DNA from: Methanothrix sp. | Lineage (GTDB): Archaea > Halobacteriota > Methanosarcinia > Methanotrichales > Methanotrichaceae | NCBI GenBank assembly: GCA_012798025.1 | Contig: JAAZNX010000204.1 | Span: 1 to 28,197, forward strand | DNA: 28,197 nt | Reading direction: 5' to 3' | Shown: positions 890-14,860 of the stretch, piece after piece | How positions within the stretch are numbered: the stretch's first letter is position 1 | How the letters are laid out: each line of letters starts with the position of its first letter | Program-made: the position numbers and the translations under genes | Notes under the pieces: generated by a model | Told to the model about the DNA's origin: nothing | The model's input: only the letters and a program-made list of their open reading frames with translations | Databases searched by the model: none

Positions 890-895
890 ATGGAG

Positions 896-2008
896 ATGAA
901 GTACATCATTGACGATGCTCTGGACAGAGCAGAGGTGGAGAGCAGGATAAAGCCCTCCAGCATGATCCAGAGCGATGAGGAGTTAGTGGCAGTTTTAGAG
1001 GAACTGACCACAGTCATCAGGGTCATAGGATGCGGTGGAGGCGGCTCAAATACCATCGACCGCCTAGCTGAGTACGGCATCCAGGGAGCAGAACTCTATG
1101 CCATCAACACCGATGCTCAGCATCTCCTGCACATCAACGCAGACCGACGCTTTCTCATTGGCAGGCGCACCACTCGCGGCCTTGGGGCCGGCAGCCTGCC
1201 AGCAATCGGAGAAGAGGCGGCCCAGGAGGACATCGACGAGATCAAGGCATCTGTGGATGGAGCCGACATGGTGTTCGTAACCTGCGGCCTTGGCGGCGGC
1301 ACGGGTACGGGGGCCTCACCGGTTGTGGCAGAGGCTGCGAGAGAAGCTGGGGCTCTAACAATCGCCATCGTCACCATTCCCTTCAGCGCTGAAGGGACCA
1401 TTCGCATGCAAAATGCAGAAGCAGGTTTGAAGAGGCTGCGAGAGGTCTCTGACACAGTAATAGTGGTGCCAAACGACAGGCTTCTTGATGTAGTCCCGAA
1501 CCTGCCCTTGCAGGCAGCCTTCAAGGTGGCGGACGAGGTCCTGATGCGCTCAGTAAAGGGCATCACGGAGCTCATCACACGACCAGGGCTGATCAATCTG
1601 GACTTTGCCGATGTCAGGACGGTCATGACGAACGGCGGCGTGGCCATGATCGGCATGGGCGAGGCAGAAGGGGAAGAGAAAGCGCGCGACTCCGTCACCA
1701 AAGCCCTGAGAAGCCCACTGCTAGATGTGGATGTCTCCAACGCAACATCTGCCCTTGTGAATGTTGTTGGTGGCGCAGACATGACCATCACTGATGCCGA
1801 GACCGTTGTGGATGAAGTCTACCAAAAGATTAACCCCGACGCAAGAATAATCTGGGGAGCGCAGATCGACCCGAACCTGGAGCATACCATCAGAACCATG
1901 CTCGTTGTGACAGGCGTGTCATCTCCGCAGATCCTCGGAAAGGATATGGGCAAGCGGGTAACCACCCGGCATGGCATCGACTTCCTCTCCCGGCGGGCAC
2001 GCTACTAA
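896..2008 (+). CDS. ftsZ: Cell division protein FtsZ
   Basis: A tubulin-fold GTPase that polymerises into the cytokinetic Z ring under the membrane at mid-cell. Numbered from ATG 896 (370 residues), the nucleotide-binding GGGGSN loop is at about 47-52, the tubulin signature GGGTGTG at about 133-139, and the T7 synergy loop, which completes the GTPase site of the next subunit, carries N234, D236 and D239 (NLDFAD). An N-terminal extension of about 40 residues before the globular domain is usual in archaeal FtsZ. The C-terminus ends in a short basic tail (RRARY) rather than a bacterial FtsA/ZipA-binding peptide. ATG 890 is an alternative start, but the ribosome-binding site fits 896 better. It is monocistronic: the gene behind it is convergent with only 10 bases between them. 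Identity is certain; the FtsZ1 versus FtsZ2 subtype needs a tree. Confidence 0.97.
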
Positions 2009-2774: not shown

Positions 2775-3059
2775 GTGAGCGAGGAGCTTGAGATGTTGCA
2801 AAGACACCTGGTCATACTTAAGCAGGTGGTGGAGAACGAGCCCATCGGCATTCTCAAGCTGGCGGAGGAGACGCGGATACCCAGCCATAAGGTGCGATAT
2901 TCTCTTCGGGTTTTGGAGCAGGAAGGCCTCATCAAAGCATCGGCTCCAGGTGCCGTGACCACAGACAAAACCAAGCCATTTCTTCAGGGGCTGGATGCCA
3001 TGATCGAGAACCTGACAAGACGGGCCGAGGACCTGAAGAAGATCAAGATAGAGAGATAG
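2775..3059 (+). CDS. Small winged-helix DNA-binding protein
   Basis: A 94-residue protein with a winged-helix domain at about 20-65: a helix with ILKLAEETRI, then PSHKVRYSLRVLEQEGLI as recognition helix and wing entry. A charged C-terminal helix (about 70-94, LTRRAEDLKKIKIER) probably supports dimerisation. It starts at GTG 2775 with only a weak purine run (gagaag) before it. Its stop at 3057-3059 is followed immediately by the ATG of the ligase-like gene, so the two are almost certainly co-transcribed and translationally coupled. It could be the local repressor of the divergent promoter or a DNA-binding accessory of the downstream proteins; sequence does not separate these. No metal- or ligand-binding motif is visible. 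Confidence 0.75.
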   Translation: MSEELEMLQRHLVILKQVVENEPIGILKLAEETRIPSHKVRYSLRVLEQEGLIKASAPGAVTTDKTKPFLQGLDAMIENLTRRAEDLKKIKIER

Positions 3060-4337
3060 ATGCTATATTCACGAATAGCGGCGCTCCTGGAAGAAGTCTC
3101 TTCGGCCCCTCGCGGACAAAAGGCCAGTTTGACCTCAGAGTTTCTGATAGGCATCGAGCCTGGAATGCTCTGCCCTGCGGTTAGACTTCTTTATGGCGAG
3201 CTGTGGCCGCCGTGGGAAGAAAGAGAGATGGGCATAGGCCCCGAGTCCATAATGGCGGTTCTCGAAGAAGTGTCCGGAGAGGATGTTCTCGCCATTAGAG
3301 AGAACCTTCGTGAGATCGGTAGGGTGTGCGAGGCAGCTTTGCAGCACAAGAGTCAGCATCCGCTAACGAAAGAGCCACTGCAGGCATTATCTGTGTACAA
3401 CGGGCTGCGACATGTCTCCCAGATGAGAGGTCCAGATTCGGAGCACCGAAAGAATGCTGTTTTGAAAGGCCTGTTTCTATCGGCTTTGCCCCAGGAAGGA
3501 AAATACATCGCCAGGACAGCTCTGCGAAGCATGCTGTCGGGCATAGGCCCCCAGACCATGATTACAGCTCTTTCCAGGGCATTTAATTCAGATCAGGATG
3601 AAATTCAAAGGGCTTATAATGCGATGCCGGAGATGGGATTGGTAGCCAGGGCCGCCCAAGATGGAGCGCTGAAACAAATTACGATTCAGTCAGGGAGGCC
3701 CGTGAGGCCCATGATAATCCGCTCCGGTGTGCTGGCAACGCCCAGGGCATTTTTGCCAAGGTACGCTGGTTTAAAGGTGCAGCTTCATATAGCGAGTAAA
3801 GGGTGTTCGGTTTTCACATCCCACCAGAAGAACATCACTTCTGCTCTTTCCAGCTTAGTCCAGCAGCTTGTGGGATTGAAAGATGACCTGATCGTGGATG
3901 CCGACCTGATAGGGTTTCAAGACGGGGGCTTATGCAGCCAGGTTGAGGTGATCAGATACATCAACCGCCGCCATCTCTCACGAAAAAGCATCATATCGCC
4001 AGCGATTATAGCTTATGACCTGATATATCTTAATGGAGAGGACCTTACAGGCCTAAGCTATAAGGAGAGAAGACGAAGATTGCTGAGTGTATTTGGAGAG
4101 CCTAAGAGCATGCCTTTTCAGGGCGTCTCATCTGCAGAGGAGAAGGTTTTAAATGACGAAGGAGAGGTTAGGGATTACTACATCCAGGCGAAGAGATTAG
4201 GCTGCACCGGATTGATAATGAGAGATCTAGAAGCCGCCTACCGTCCAGGCGGCTGCAGCGATAGGGATTTCATCGTAATGAGGCTCGATGCTGCTCTGGA
4301 GGATTTAGACGAGCAGGAGAAGATCAGCACAAGATGA
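3060..4337 (+). CDS. Degenerate ATP-dependent DNA ligase homologue, probably catalytically inactive
   Basis: A 425-residue homologue of archaeal ATP-dependent DNA ligases. It keeps the N-terminal all-alpha DNA-binding region (about 1-205), the conserved PVRPMI element (214-219) and the adenylation-domain scaffold, with motif IIIa as YDLIYLNGEDLTGLS (319-333). Active-site positions are altered. Motif I, normally KYDGER, reads RYAGLK at 234-239, so the lysine that becomes adenylated is Arg and the following Asp is Ala. Motif III has D282 in place of Glu. Motif IV, normally EGLxxK, reads TGLIMR (383-388). The motif V region reads DFIVMR (403-408) without its lysines. The protein ends there, lacking the OB-fold domain of roughly 130-150 residues found in full-length enzymes of about 550-600. 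The frame is open with ordinary codon use, so it looks maintained rather than decayed. Likely roles are nick or end binding, or a scaffold for the coupled radical SAM protein; both are inference. Confidence 0.8.
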   Translation: MLYSRIAALLEEVSSAPRGQKASLTSEFLIGIEPGMLCPAVRLLYGELWPPWEEREMGIGPESIMAVLEEVSGEDVLAIRENLREIGRVCEAALQHKSQHPLTKEPLQALSVYNGLRHVSQMRGPDSEHRKNAVLKGLFLSALPQEGKYIARTALRSMLSGIGPQTMITALSRAFNSDQDEIQRAYNAMPEMGLVARAAQDGALKQITIQSGRPVRPMIIRSGVLATPRAFLPRYAGLKVQLHIASKGCSVFTSHQKNITSALSSLVQQLVGLKDDLIVDADLIGFQDGGLCSQVEVIRYINRRHLSRKSIISPAIIAYDLIYLNGEDLTGLSYKERRRRLLSVFGEPKSMPFQGVSSAEEKVLNDEGEVRDYYIQAKRLGCTGLIMRDLEAAYRPGGCSDRDFIVMRLDAALEDLDEQEKISTR

Positions 4338-5200
4338 TTCTGAGACCTTTCGATCCCTGGAAAAGCCAGCTATGTACCTGTCCGCCCAAGATGAGCCTGA
4401 ATCCCTACACAGGATGTCCGCATGGATGTCTTTATTGCTATGCATCCTCCTATATTCCCCATTTCCATGAGTGCCGGGCCAAAGCAGGTCTGCTAAGACG
4501 TCTGGCACGGGAAGCGGCAAAGATCAATCCCGGAACCCTTGTGGCCATGTCCAACAGCTCTGATCCATATCCTGCAATGGAAAAGGAACTTGAGCTGAGC
4601 AGAGGATGCCTGCAGATTCTAAAGGAGAAAAGCTTGCCGGTACAGATTGTAACGAAATCAGATCTCGTAATTAGGGATGCAGATCTGCTGAGCAGCATGA
4701 GGTCCACAGTGGCCATCAGCATCACAACACTCAGCGATTCCATCTCCAGGAAGCTGGAGCCCGGTGCACCATCACCCTCGAGGCGACTGATGGCCATACG
4801 CAGGCTGACGGACTACAACATACCTGTATCCGCCAGAATCGACCCTATCATCCCAGGCATAAACGAATCCGAGATCGAAGAGCTGGTCCTTGCCGTATGT
4901 CGAGCAGGGGCAGAGCACATAATCTCCTCCACCTACAAAGCCCGCAAAGACAATCTGAGAAGGGTCTGCTCAGCATTTCCAAGGGCTGGCGATGCTCTAA
5001 AGGTTATGTTCCAGAGAGGGTGCAGCATCTCCAGAAGCCTGTACCTTTCCCCAGATATGAGGCAGGAGTTGATGCGAGAGGTAGAGAGGAGCGCATTGCG
5101 AGAAGGCGTGACCTTCTCGGCCTGCAGGGAAGGGTTTGCACCCCACGATGGCATAAACTGCGATGGAACTCATCTGTTATTGTGCAAAAATCATGCCTAA
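4334..5200 (+). CDS. Radical SAM protein, spore-photoproduct-lyase-like (SplB/COG1533 type)
   Basis: A 288-residue radical S-adenosylmethionine enzyme. The [4Fe-4S]-binding CxxxCxxC motif is C28, C32 and C35 (GCPHGCLYCYA), preceded by LNPYTG as is common in the SplB-like family (often labelled DNA repair photolyase in databases). A partial TIM barrel follows, with TLVAMSNSSDPYPAMEKEL (about 68-86) and ARIDPIIPGINESEIEEL (about 166-183), both typical of this family. Extra cysteines occur near the C-terminus (within FSACREGF and DGINCDGTHLLLCKN), which could hold a second cluster or a hydrogen-donating thiol. Its ATG overlaps the ligase-like stop by 4 bases (ATGA), so the two are co-translated. 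Characterised SPL repairs the thymine spore photoproduct, but most archaeal members have no known substrate; the DNA context here makes a nucleic-acid lesion plausible but unproven. Confidence 0.85.
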   Translation: MILRPFDPWKSQLCTCPPKMSLNPYTGCPHGCLYCYASSYIPHFHECRAKAGLLRRLAREAAKINPGTLVAMSNSSDPYPAMEKELELSRGCLQILKEKSLPVQIVTKSDLVIRDADLLSSMRSTVAISITTLSDSISRKLEPGAPSPSRRLMAIRRLTDYNIPVSARIDPIIPGINESEIEELVLAVCRAGAEHIISSTYKARKDNLRRVCSAFPRAGDALKVMFQRGCSISRSLYLSPDMRQELMREVERSALREGVTFSACREGFAPHDGINCDGTHLLLCKNHA

Positions 5201-12824: not shown

Positions 12825-13559
12825 ATGATTCGAGCGGCACTAATCGGCAACCCCAACGTGGGCAAGACCGAGATTTTCAACCGCCTGACAGGGCTCTCTC
12901 AGAAGGTGGGCAACTTTCCTGGAGTAACAGTTGAGAAGAAGGCCGGAAGGCTGGTTCATCAGGGACGGGAGATAGAAGTGGTAGACCTGCCAGGCACCTA
13001 CAGCCTCACAGCTCACTCAGTTGACGAGCTTGTGGCCAGGGACTACATAGTTTTGGAGAGGCCGGAAGTGATCGTTGACATCGTTGATGGGACCAACCTG
13101 GAGCGAAACCTCTACCTTACCTTGCTCTTGCTTGAGATGGATGCCAATCTCGTGGTCGCCCTGAACCGATGGGATATGGTGAAGGCGAGAGGCATGGAAA
13201 TAGACATCGAGAAGCTTTCAGAACTCCTGGGCTGTCCTGTGGTGCCGACTGTCGCCATCACCGGAGACGGGCTGGAAGATCTAAAGGATTCGATAGTTGA
13301 TGCAGCAGGGCAGAAGAGGGCAAAAGGCCAGGATGCTGCTTTGAACTACGGATGCGATATTGAGCGGCTCATAAGCAAAGTCGAAGATTTGATCCGGAAG
13401 AGCCCCGCGCTTGTTGAGAAATACCCTCAAAGATGGCTAGCCATAAAGATGCTGGAGGGAGATGAGATGGCCATGGAGCAGACTAGAGCCTGCCTATCGT
13501 CATCCCAGTTGGCAGAGATTCTGAGCATAATTGAAGCTGTGGAGGCAGCAATCAAATGA
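12825..13559 (+). CDS. feoB: FeoB cytoplasmic GTPase domain, encoded as a separate protein
   Basis: A 244-residue soluble protein equal to the N-terminal half of FeoB. G1 is GNPNVGKT (8-15), G2 Thr is T35 in FPGVTVEKK, G3 is DLPGT (54-58), and G4 is NRWD (114-117); G5 is probably in AITGDG (about 145-150). The helical spacer (GDI) domain follows to the end, with RWLAIKMLEGD as a typical family segment. In most organisms this is fused to the membrane permease. Here the frame ends and the membrane part begins at an ATG overlapping by 4 bases (ATGA), exactly at the domain boundary, so this is a genuine gene split rather than an error. GTP binding would gate ferrous iron uptake. Confidence 0.93.
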   Translation: MIRAALIGNPNVGKTEIFNRLTGLSQKVGNFPGVTVEKKAGRLVHQGREIEVVDLPGTYSLTAHSVDELVARDYIVLERPEVIVDIVDGTNLERNLYLTLLLLEMDANLVVALNRWDMVKARGMEIDIEKLSELLGCPVVPTVAITGDGLEDLKDSIVDAAGQKRAKGQDAALNYGCDIERLISKVEDLIRKSPALVEKYPQRWLAIKMLEGDEMAMEQTRACLSSSQLAEILSIIEAVEAAIK

Positions 13560-14860
13560 GCGAATACGCTGAGAACCTAAGCTCTGCCCTTGTGCAAAGG
13601 AGATATGAGTGGATAGCATCTACAGTGGACTCCACCGTTAAGAAGGGCAGTGGCGAAATATTCACGTTAACGGATATGCTGGACCAGGTATTTTTAGATA
13701 AGCATCTAGGCATACCGATATTCCTGACGATACTCTGGACGATGTTCCAGTTTGCATTTGCCGTTTCAGAGCCATTTGTGGTCATTATCGAGAGGGTCTT
13801 TGAGATGCTCGGGGCCTGGGTCAATCAGGCCATATCCGACCCCTATTTGGCGTCCTTCGTCTCCGTGGGCGTCATCGGCGGCCTGGGATCGGTGCTGGTA
13901 TTCGTCCCTCCGATCTTCGGCCTCTTTTTAGCGCTCTCCATTCTGGAGGACAGCGGCTATATGGCCAGAGCTGCGTTTGTGATGGACCGGTTCATGTATC
14001 GACTGGGCCTGCATGGCCGCTCGTTCATACCGCTGATGATCGGCTTTGGCTGCAACGTTCCGGCAATAATGGCAACACGCAGCATGGACAGCGAAAAGGA
14101 CAGGATGATCACAATGTTGATCTCCCCTCTCATAAGCTGCAGCGCCAGGCTTCCTGTTTATGTGCTGATAGCAGGAGCGCTTTTTGGTGCGTCTTATGCT
14201 GGAACCGCCGTTTTTGCCGTGTATGCTCTGGGAATCGTGCTGGCGGTTGTAATGGCCCTGATATTTCGAAGGACGCTCTTTAAGGGAGAGCCTTCGCCCT
14301 TCGTTTTGGAGCTGCCGACCTATGCCGTGCCTGATGCCTCAAGCGCAATCCTTCACATGTGGTCCCGGGGCAGGATGTTCCTGAAAAAGGCGGGAACGAT
14401 CATATTCTGGGCGACGATTATCGTCTGGCTCCTTTCTGTGCACCCATGGGAGGCAACGTCCGGCGGCCAGGTGATAGCCGAATCCTACATTGCCTGGATA
14501 GGCCATGCCATTGAGCCGGTGTTCCAACCATTCGGATGGGACTGGATGGCTGCTGTCGCGCTTCTGTTCGGCCTGGTCGCAAAAGAGGTGGTTGTCGGCA
14601 CATACGGCATTTTGCTCGGTGCTGAGGAAGCCGGCCTGGGAGATGCGCTTGTAAGCCAGGGGCTATTTACGCCGCTGACAGGCTTCGCATTCATGGCCTT
14701 CGTCCTGATCTACGTGCCTTGCGTTGCGGTCATAGGTACGATTGCGAAAGAGACGAACTCGTGGCGGTGGCCTGCCTTTGCGCTCGTATACCAGACGGCA
14801 CTTGCCTTCATAGTCACAGGCGTAATTATCGCAGTGGGCAGGTTGGCAGGTTTGAGCTAG
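13556..14860 (+). CDS. feoB: FeoB ferrous iron permease, membrane domain
   Basis: A 434-residue integral membrane protein forming the channel half of FeoB. The short N-terminal segment (RRYEWIASTVDSTV, about 15-28) is the linker that normally follows the spacer domain. Two Gate-like halves follow: SILEDSGYMARAAFVMDRFM (about 128-147), then GFGCNVPAIMATRSM (about 162-176) and LISPLISCSARLPVYVLIAG (about 187-206), which carry the conserved Cys residues (C165 and the Cys in SCSARLP), and a later LIYVPCVAVIGTIAKE segment with a third Cys. About eight or more hydrophobic helices are visible. It must pair with the separately encoded G-domain upstream. The length matches the normal FeoB membrane part. 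Confidence 0.94.
   Translation: MSEYAENLSSALVQRRYEWIASTVDSTVKKGSGEIFTLTDMLDQVFLDKHLGIPIFLTILWTMFQFAFAVSEPFVVIIERVFEMLGAWVNQAISDPYLASFVSVGVIGGLGSVLVFVPPIFGLFLALSILEDSGYMARAAFVMDRFMYRLGLHGRSFIPLMIGFGCNVPAIMATRSMDSEKDRMITMLISPLISCSARLPVYVLIAGALFGASYAGTAVFAVYALGIVLAVVMALIFRRTLFKGEPSPFVLELPTYAVPDASSAILHMWSRGRMFLKKAGTIIFWATIIVWLLSVHPWEATSGGQVIAESYIAWIGHAIEPVFQPFGWDWMAAVALLFGLVAKEVVVGTYGILLGAEEAGLGDALVSQGLFTPLTGFAFMAFVLIYVPCVAVIGTIAKETNSWRWPAFALVYQTALAFIVTGVIIAVGRLAGLS

Follow-up and report, generated by a model that had tools for sequence, protein, structure and literature searches.

The window analysed here, meaning the whole stretch of 28,197 nucleotides from a Methanothrix genome, contains on its forward strand an open frame of 425 codons at positions 3060 to 4337 that encodes a homologue of DNA ligase. 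Both the open frame and its coupling to the two neighboring genes, claimed earlier by a sequence-only reading, were confirmed: the stop codon of a winged-helix (wHTH) gene abuts its ATG, and an ATGA overlap joins its end to the start of a radical SAM gene. The genes and features of the locus are as follows.

890..2008, forward strand: ftsZ, a conserved neighbor of the wHTH and pseudo-ligase pair
2775..3059, forward strand: wHTH gene, its stop codon abutting the pseudo-ligase ATG
3060..4337, forward strand: pseudo-ligase gene, ATG start, 425 aa; Lig1-type DNA-binding domain and nucleotidyltransferase shell, OB core deleted, catalytic residues lost
3060..3662, forward strand: N-terminal DNA-binding domain (DBD), residues 1-201 (Pfam DNA_ligase_A_N)
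3672..4277, forward strand: predicted inactive nucleotidyltransferase (NTase) domain, residues 205-406 (Pfam DNA_ligase_A_M; AF2 mean pLDDT 91)
3759..3776, forward strand: degenerate motif I RYAGLK, residues 234-239 (alignment)
3897..3905, forward strand: degenerate motif III DAD, residues 280-282, DGE in intact ligases (alignment)
3957..3989, forward strand: family-specific conserved basic block YINRRHLSRKS, residues 300-310 (alignment; low model confidence)
4014..4037, forward strand: motif IIIa YDLIYLNG, residues 319-326, aromatic kept in 146/160 aligned members
4206..4223, forward strand: degenerate motif IV TGLIMR, residues 383-388 (alignment)
4266..4283, forward strand: degenerate motif V DFIVMR, residues 403-408, Asp403 kept in 154/160
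4278..4325, forward strand: probable C-terminal remnant of the OB domain, residues 407-422 (shuffle test against long forms)
4334..5200, forward strand: radical SAM gene resembling the PA0069/Rv2578c type, ATGA overlap with the pseudo-ligase end

The open reading frame encodes a Lig1-type ATP-dependent DNA ligase homologue with the ligase DBD and NTase fold. Pfam DNA_ligase_A_N matched residues 3-172 (1.4e-27, 97.4 bits against a cut-off of 24.6) and DNA_ligase_A_M matched residues 235-397 (2.4e-16, 60.5 bits against a cut-off of 26.2); the C-terminal OB family was absent from the Pfam matches. Archaeal ligases were the best sequence matches in the PDB (E 1.4e-45). The AF2 model was confident, though less so over residues 301-310 (mean pLDDT 65), and Foldseek placed archaeal ligases at ranks 1-6 (TMq 0.80-0.87), DNA ligases or ligase complexes making up all of the best 50 matches listed in each structure comparison. 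Structural alignment to the archaeal replicative ligases (Lig1 type) of Thermococcus (3rr5, 9dfa), Pyrococcus (2cfm) and Archaeoglobus (3gde) gave 25-27% identity; unlike these enzymes, the window copy lacks KxDG, the Lys of motif IV, the motif V lysines and the OB core. Human DNA ligase 1 wraps its DBD, NTase and OB domains around nicked DNA. In contrast, the window copy appears to lack both the clamp-closing OB domain and the chemistry. The same genome also encodes an intact ligase of 557 aa (L002, G000:C212) with 10/10 catalytic positions, to which the window copy is homologous over residues 13-399 at 28% identity.

Catalytic residues have been lost throughout the active site of the window copy. 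The sequence-only reading had placed RYAGLK at residues 234-239 with Arg at the nucleophile position, and this is indeed what aligns to KxDGxR of intact ligases. It was also right that the motif IV and V lysines are replaced, in TGLIMR (EGLMLK in intact ligases) and DFIVMR (WLKIKP); the motif V lysines, however, align to Ile405 and Met407 rather than to Arg, with Met407 assigned from the ungapped sequence as the alignment column is gapped there. Passages of PMC4609770 describe the motif V lysines as essential for adenylylation and sealing in the T7 and Chlorella virus ligases. Further changes are motif I Asp to Ala236, motif III Glu to Asp282, motif IV Glu to Thr383 and a conserved Arg to Ser254, and both Pfam and the alignment find no OB domain with motif VI RxDK. 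Ten positions were scored (motif I Lys, Asp and Arg; Arg270; motif III Glu; the motif IIIa aromatic; motif IV Glu and Lys; two motif V lysines; numbers such as E248 and R270 follow the intact ligase of the host), and of these the window copy retains a single one, the aromatic of motif IIIa.

The loss extends across the family. We aligned 160 pseudo-ligase members, comprising 41 genome copies and 119 from the best 120 of 206 database matches, with 40 intact ligases, of which 32 come from same-class genomes and 8 from genomes of other classes; some of the 160 are the same protein twice, so they do not represent 160 independent cases. All 40 intact ligases keep 10/10 catalytic positions. Pseudo-ligases keep between 0 and 6, and 91/160 keep three. 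Orthologues with an intact KxDG, which would have marked the window copy as a recent mutant, were looked for and none was found among the 160 aligned members, the relatives of the window copy included: 0/160 carry the Asp of motif I, and 0/160 the first Lys of motif V. R270 is lost in all 160, and the Glu that precedes motif I (E248) is Leu or another non-acidic residue in 160/160. The motif VI Lys column holds Lys in 0/160 and a gap in 77. The motif I Lys position is K in 96, R in 40 and another residue in 24 (basic in 136/160), the motif IV Lys is retained in 4/160 at a position that is basic in 157/160, the motif I Arg position is basic in 152/160, and the motif III position is acidic in 127/160. 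The sequence-only reading had asked whether the Arg substitution is shared; it is not common to the family. We reject Lys-to-Arg as the defining change since K is still present in 96/160; Lys and Arg alternate among the closest relatives of the window copy, and one that is 85% identical (G012) has Lys. The change is drift on top of a family-wide loss of catalytic residues. A recent null mutant is likewise rejected, with no aligned relative carrying KxDG, as is a pseudogene, the frame being open and omega 0.204. Judged from its sequences, with key adenylation residues missing in all aligned members, the pseudo-ligase family is predicted to be non-catalytic.

The OB domain has a separate history. 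The sequence-only reading had the OB fold missing; its core is indeed gone from the window copy, but residues 407-422 look like a remnant. They match the extreme C-terminus of OB-bearing long forms, and shuffled sequences matched as well in 0/500 cases against G023 and G018 and in 5/500 against G006 and G016. It is probable from this similarity that the OB core was lost internally, with the 407-422 remnant joined to the NTase domain; the G021 copy likewise resembles an in-frame internal OB deletion. Nor is the truncation common to the family. Dividing long from short forms at 510 aa, the 35 genome copies in the tree comprise 22 short and 13 long forms, and 16 OB losses are needed if regain is impossible (15-17 over 100 sampled of 1000 bootstrap trees), a count that includes soft cases, as G002 stops at a contig edge and G034 was scored long though its tail is not OB-like. 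In G022, G013 and G032, also soft cases, OB relics are frame-shifted or detached, whether truly so or through assembly error. An ancestral OB loss is rejected, given the 13/35 long forms, a match to the Pfam ligase C-terminal family in 10/61 long forms (and in those only), and a long form (G004) that was modelled as DBD-NTase-OB with pLDDT 88.

The pseudo-ligase is a feature of the Methanotrichaceae, a family of acetate-using methane-producing archaea. A first search of 60 related genomes, including that of the window, found a copy in 36/37 Methanotrichaceae genomes; the 23 other same-class genomes gave only weaker ligase matches (best 138.7 bits). Motifs were read in the main ligases of 4 of those 23 genomes and in three second ligases, all KxDG, and for the rest the score decided. 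When 392 genomes of the phylum were searched with a profile, all 15 Methanotrichaceae genomes drawn were positive, at 301.6 bits at least; no pseudo-ligase was recognised in the 377 non-family genomes, which scored no higher than 281.7 bits or gave no match at the 1e-10 threshold, and the eight higher-scoring non-family matches that were retrieved are intact ligases. With both searches pooled, the pseudo-ligase is present in 42/43 distinct Methanotrichaceae genomes, the only one without it (G005) being 56% complete. It is also kept in genomes of only 1.7-2.0 Mb. Record names among the matches listed were Methanosaeta/Methanothrix, Methanotrichaceae archaeon, uncultured Methanosarcinales archaeon, Methanothrix sp. 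and uncultured archaeon. In G022 (97% complete) only the pseudo-ligase was found and a second, intact ligase went unmatched, probably through an assembly gap. The G025 copy (L087, G025:C403) follows the family over residues 1-307 only, after which its frame departs, through a broken gene or an assembly error. In some same-class non-family genomes there is a second ligase with complete motifs, of KYDGER type, which belongs to a different clade (L054, L055, L057).

In the tree, the pseudo-ligases form a single clade split from the intact ligases (100/100), that of the host genome included. A sister relation to same-class intact ligases gave an AU p of 0.048, a borderline rejection of duplication of a Methanosarcinia ligase as the source; with branches this long, the source may be an in-class duplication, a deeper origin or a transfer. 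A viral origin was considered and rejected: one pattern-based scan of viral contigs returned 8 loci at 18-26% identity, over the NTase part only.

Purifying selection, for which the sequence-only reading had looked to dN/dS, was found. Codon models fitted to the same 17 genomes put omega at 0.204 in the pseudo-ligase and at 0.107 in the intact ligase. When the window copy was compared pairwise with four relatives, dN/dS was 0.13-0.36; in these comparisons ftsZ gave 0.01-0.04, the wHTH gene 0.04-0.09 and the radical SAM gene, where computable, 0.15-0.30. The pseudo-ligase was less conserved than the intact ligase in 351/351 genome pairs, at about 2.1 times the log-identity distance, and 18 columns are invariant among 78 pseudo-ligase sequences. 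The C-terminal tail of the window copy is hardly constrained, the last 26-27 codons giving a dN/dS of about 1.3 against G012 and G015. By domain, the contrast over 17 genomes is small (DBD 0.185, NTase 0.207), and only in the 12 long forms does omega clearly favor the DBD (DBD 0.133, NTase 0.235, OB 0.294); between the window copy and G012 the DBD ratio lies above the NTase ratio (0.30/0.40 versus 0.23/0.29). Median pairwise identity among pseudo-ligases is 0.51 in the DBD and 0.43 in the NTase domain, where intact ligases reach 0.69 and 0.70. Of 201 DBD columns, 55 are at least 90% identical among pseudo-ligases and 51 among intact ligases; of 202 NTase columns, the numbers are 31 and 75. Sampling in this comparison is unequal, as the intact set covers more classes. 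Our reading of these columns and rates is that the DBD is apparently held and the NTase domain relaxed, and that the residues held have shifted.

The shift bears on DNA binding in both directions. The pseudo-ligase consensus differs from that of intact ligases at 27/55 conserved DBD columns and 15/31 conserved NTase columns, the notable family-specific residues being R42, W49, W52, R130 and the basic block at 300-310 (YINRR..SR.S). Seven DBD and 18 NTase positions carry a basic residue in at least 90% of intact ligases; of these, four in the DBD (R86, R168, R177, K209) and nine in the NTase domain are basic in fewer than 60% of pseudo-ligases. Because of these losses, the nick sensing or end binding proposed by the sequence-only reading is weakened, and with 13/25 conserved basic positions given up over both domains, nick specificity is not to be assumed. 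On the other side, K97, K131 and R152 of the DBD are basic in at least 96% of both groups, and the pseudo-ligase DBD has gained conserved basic residues at 18, 42, 130 and 136. Since the DBD is as well conserved as that of intact ligases, and has retained some conserved basic residues and acquired others, we infer that the protein may still dock on DNA.

Linkage of the pseudo-ligase to the wHTH gene is tight, and the radical SAM gene usually adjoins as well. In 34/35 flanks, all except that of G029, ftsZ and the wHTH gene are found upstream, their order unchanged. The wHTH stop directly abuts the pseudo-ligase ATG in 24/41 genomes; other junctions are a one-base start/stop overlap (4), a 6-nt gap (4) or irregular (3), and in 6/41 genomes, all of one genus, the wHTH gene is not upstream. 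In many genomes the two genes are in frame and one stop apart. Readthrough of that stop is rejected: the codon varies between TAA, TAG and TGA from genome to genome, which argues for coupling instead. The wHTH gene also occurs in 21/23 same-class non-family genomes, which have no recognised pseudo-ligase. In three such genomes (L149, L150, L151) it sits between two other genes, recurrent in all three, and not beside ftsZ or a ligase, so the arrangement with ftsZ and the pseudo-ligase is a Methanotrichaceae feature.

Downstream, the radical SAM gene follows in 28/35 flanks, though in G001 only 4.7 kb on, and two of the seven flanks without it (G002, G025) end at or near a contig edge. The ATGA overlap occurs in 15/35, and is exact in eight short forms, including that of the window. 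The protein matches NCBIfam rSAM_PA0069 (5.1e-43) and, weakly, spore photoproduct lyase (SPL; 0.0016); it resembles PA0069/Rv2578c-type radical SAM proteins yet falls below the curated cut-offs. Judged by score, its orthologue is confined to Methanotrichaceae among the 60 related genomes. It is missing from G028, G033 and G036, which keep the pseudo-ligase, and we therefore reject the idea that the two genes are obligately paired. The pseudo-ligase strictly needs neither the wHTH nor the radical SAM neighbor. Further along the window, at 12825-14860, FeoB is split into two genes that overlap by ATGA, one for a GTPase and cytosolic helical domain protein of 244 aa and one for a Gate and FeoB_C protein of 434 aa; downstream of them come genes for an iron-dependent repressor, for cation efflux and for two periplasmic-binding proteins.

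Adenylation residues have thus been lost, and the DBD and NTase shell are retained under selection; with motif I Asp in 0/160 and omega at 0.20, the conserved non-catalytic homologue proposed by the sequence-only reading is supported. We consider it somewhat better than an even chance that this is a conserved non-catalytic pseudo-ligase which lost self-adenylation before the Methanotrichaceae diversified and which probably binds DNA. A Lig1-type paralogue would first have lost self-adenylation and then have been retained for a non-catalytic task. Its DBD and NTase shell could go on docking onto duplex DNA, perhaps where this is broken or distorted, but would seal nothing. Once docked, the protein may shield or mark the site, or pass it to a partner, for which the SPL-like radical SAM protein or the wHTH protein, both encoded alongside, would be the simplest candidates. 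Loss of the clamp-closing OB domain would then yield a weaker, open and reversible binder. The main rival to DNA docking is a scaffold in which the ligase fold no longer binds DNA and instead binds a partner, be it the product of the co-translated wHTH gene or of the radical SAM gene, the intact ligase or some other repair factor. We regard this as somewhat unlikely. The shift at 27/55 DBD columns would also fit a new protein partner, and the shifted columns of both domains (R42, W52, R130 and YINRR..SR.S among them), the surrendered basic positions and a wHTH gene that abuts directly in 24 genomes, and overlaps by one base or lies 6 nt away in 8 more, all suit a scaffold; the basic residues that the DBD keeps and gains do not, and every candidate partner gene has exceptions to co-inheritance. 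A more specific proposal is that the wHTH, pseudo-ligase and SPL-like radical SAM genes form a co-translated module beside ftsZ, in which the pseudo-ligase might act as a read-only sensor of strand breaks or lesions, sit on damaged DNA while leaving it unsealed, and control repair (or division) through the wHTH or radical SAM protein. This we hold to be unlikely.

A decaying relic, or a frame held open only by translational coupling to the radical SAM gene, would account for the faster evolution in all 351 genome pairs, the roughly 16 OB losses with their frame-shifted relics, the loose tail, the copy that departs from the family frame after residue 307 and the ATGA overlap in 15/35. It is quite unlikely, since omega outside the tail is about 0.2 and not near 1, the 18 invariant columns persist, and the gene survives in genomes that lack the radical SAM gene or carry it at another place, as well as in those of only 1.7-2.0 Mb. 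The altered pocket could instead bind ATP, AMP, NAD or another nucleotide non-covalently as a signal, without chemistry, a role for which the stacking aromatic of motif IIIa and the basic positions of motifs I and IV, together with the acidic motif III position, would be suited. With the E248 equivalent non-acidic throughout and both R270 and the first motif V Lys gone in every member, we think a nucleotide sensor very improbable. More improbable still is a ligase or nucleotidyltransferase that remains active through another nucleophile or metal site: Lys does persist at the motif I position in 96/160, but KxDG and the first motif V Lys are found in no aligned member, the best keeps 6/10 positions, and the window copy combines an Arg at the nucleophile position and a lone aromatic with the absence of OB and motif VI.

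No description of such a pseudo-ligase was found in the open PMC literature, subscription papers and preprints lying outside the scope of that search. DNA ligases are textbook enzymes, and a dead ligase that is family-wide and under selection would be a pseudoenzyme of the ligase fold. Many pseudo-ligases among the matches listed are named "DNA ligase" in sequence sources, which would mislead functional ligase counts. The pseudo-ligase would represent a natural separation of DNA recognition from ligase chemistry, and it shows a domain lost repeatedly once catalysis has gone; with it, the role of a ligase DBD and NTase shell without adenylation becomes directly testable. Should the sensor module prove true, the Methanotrichaceae would have converted a ligase fold from an enzyme into a sensor.
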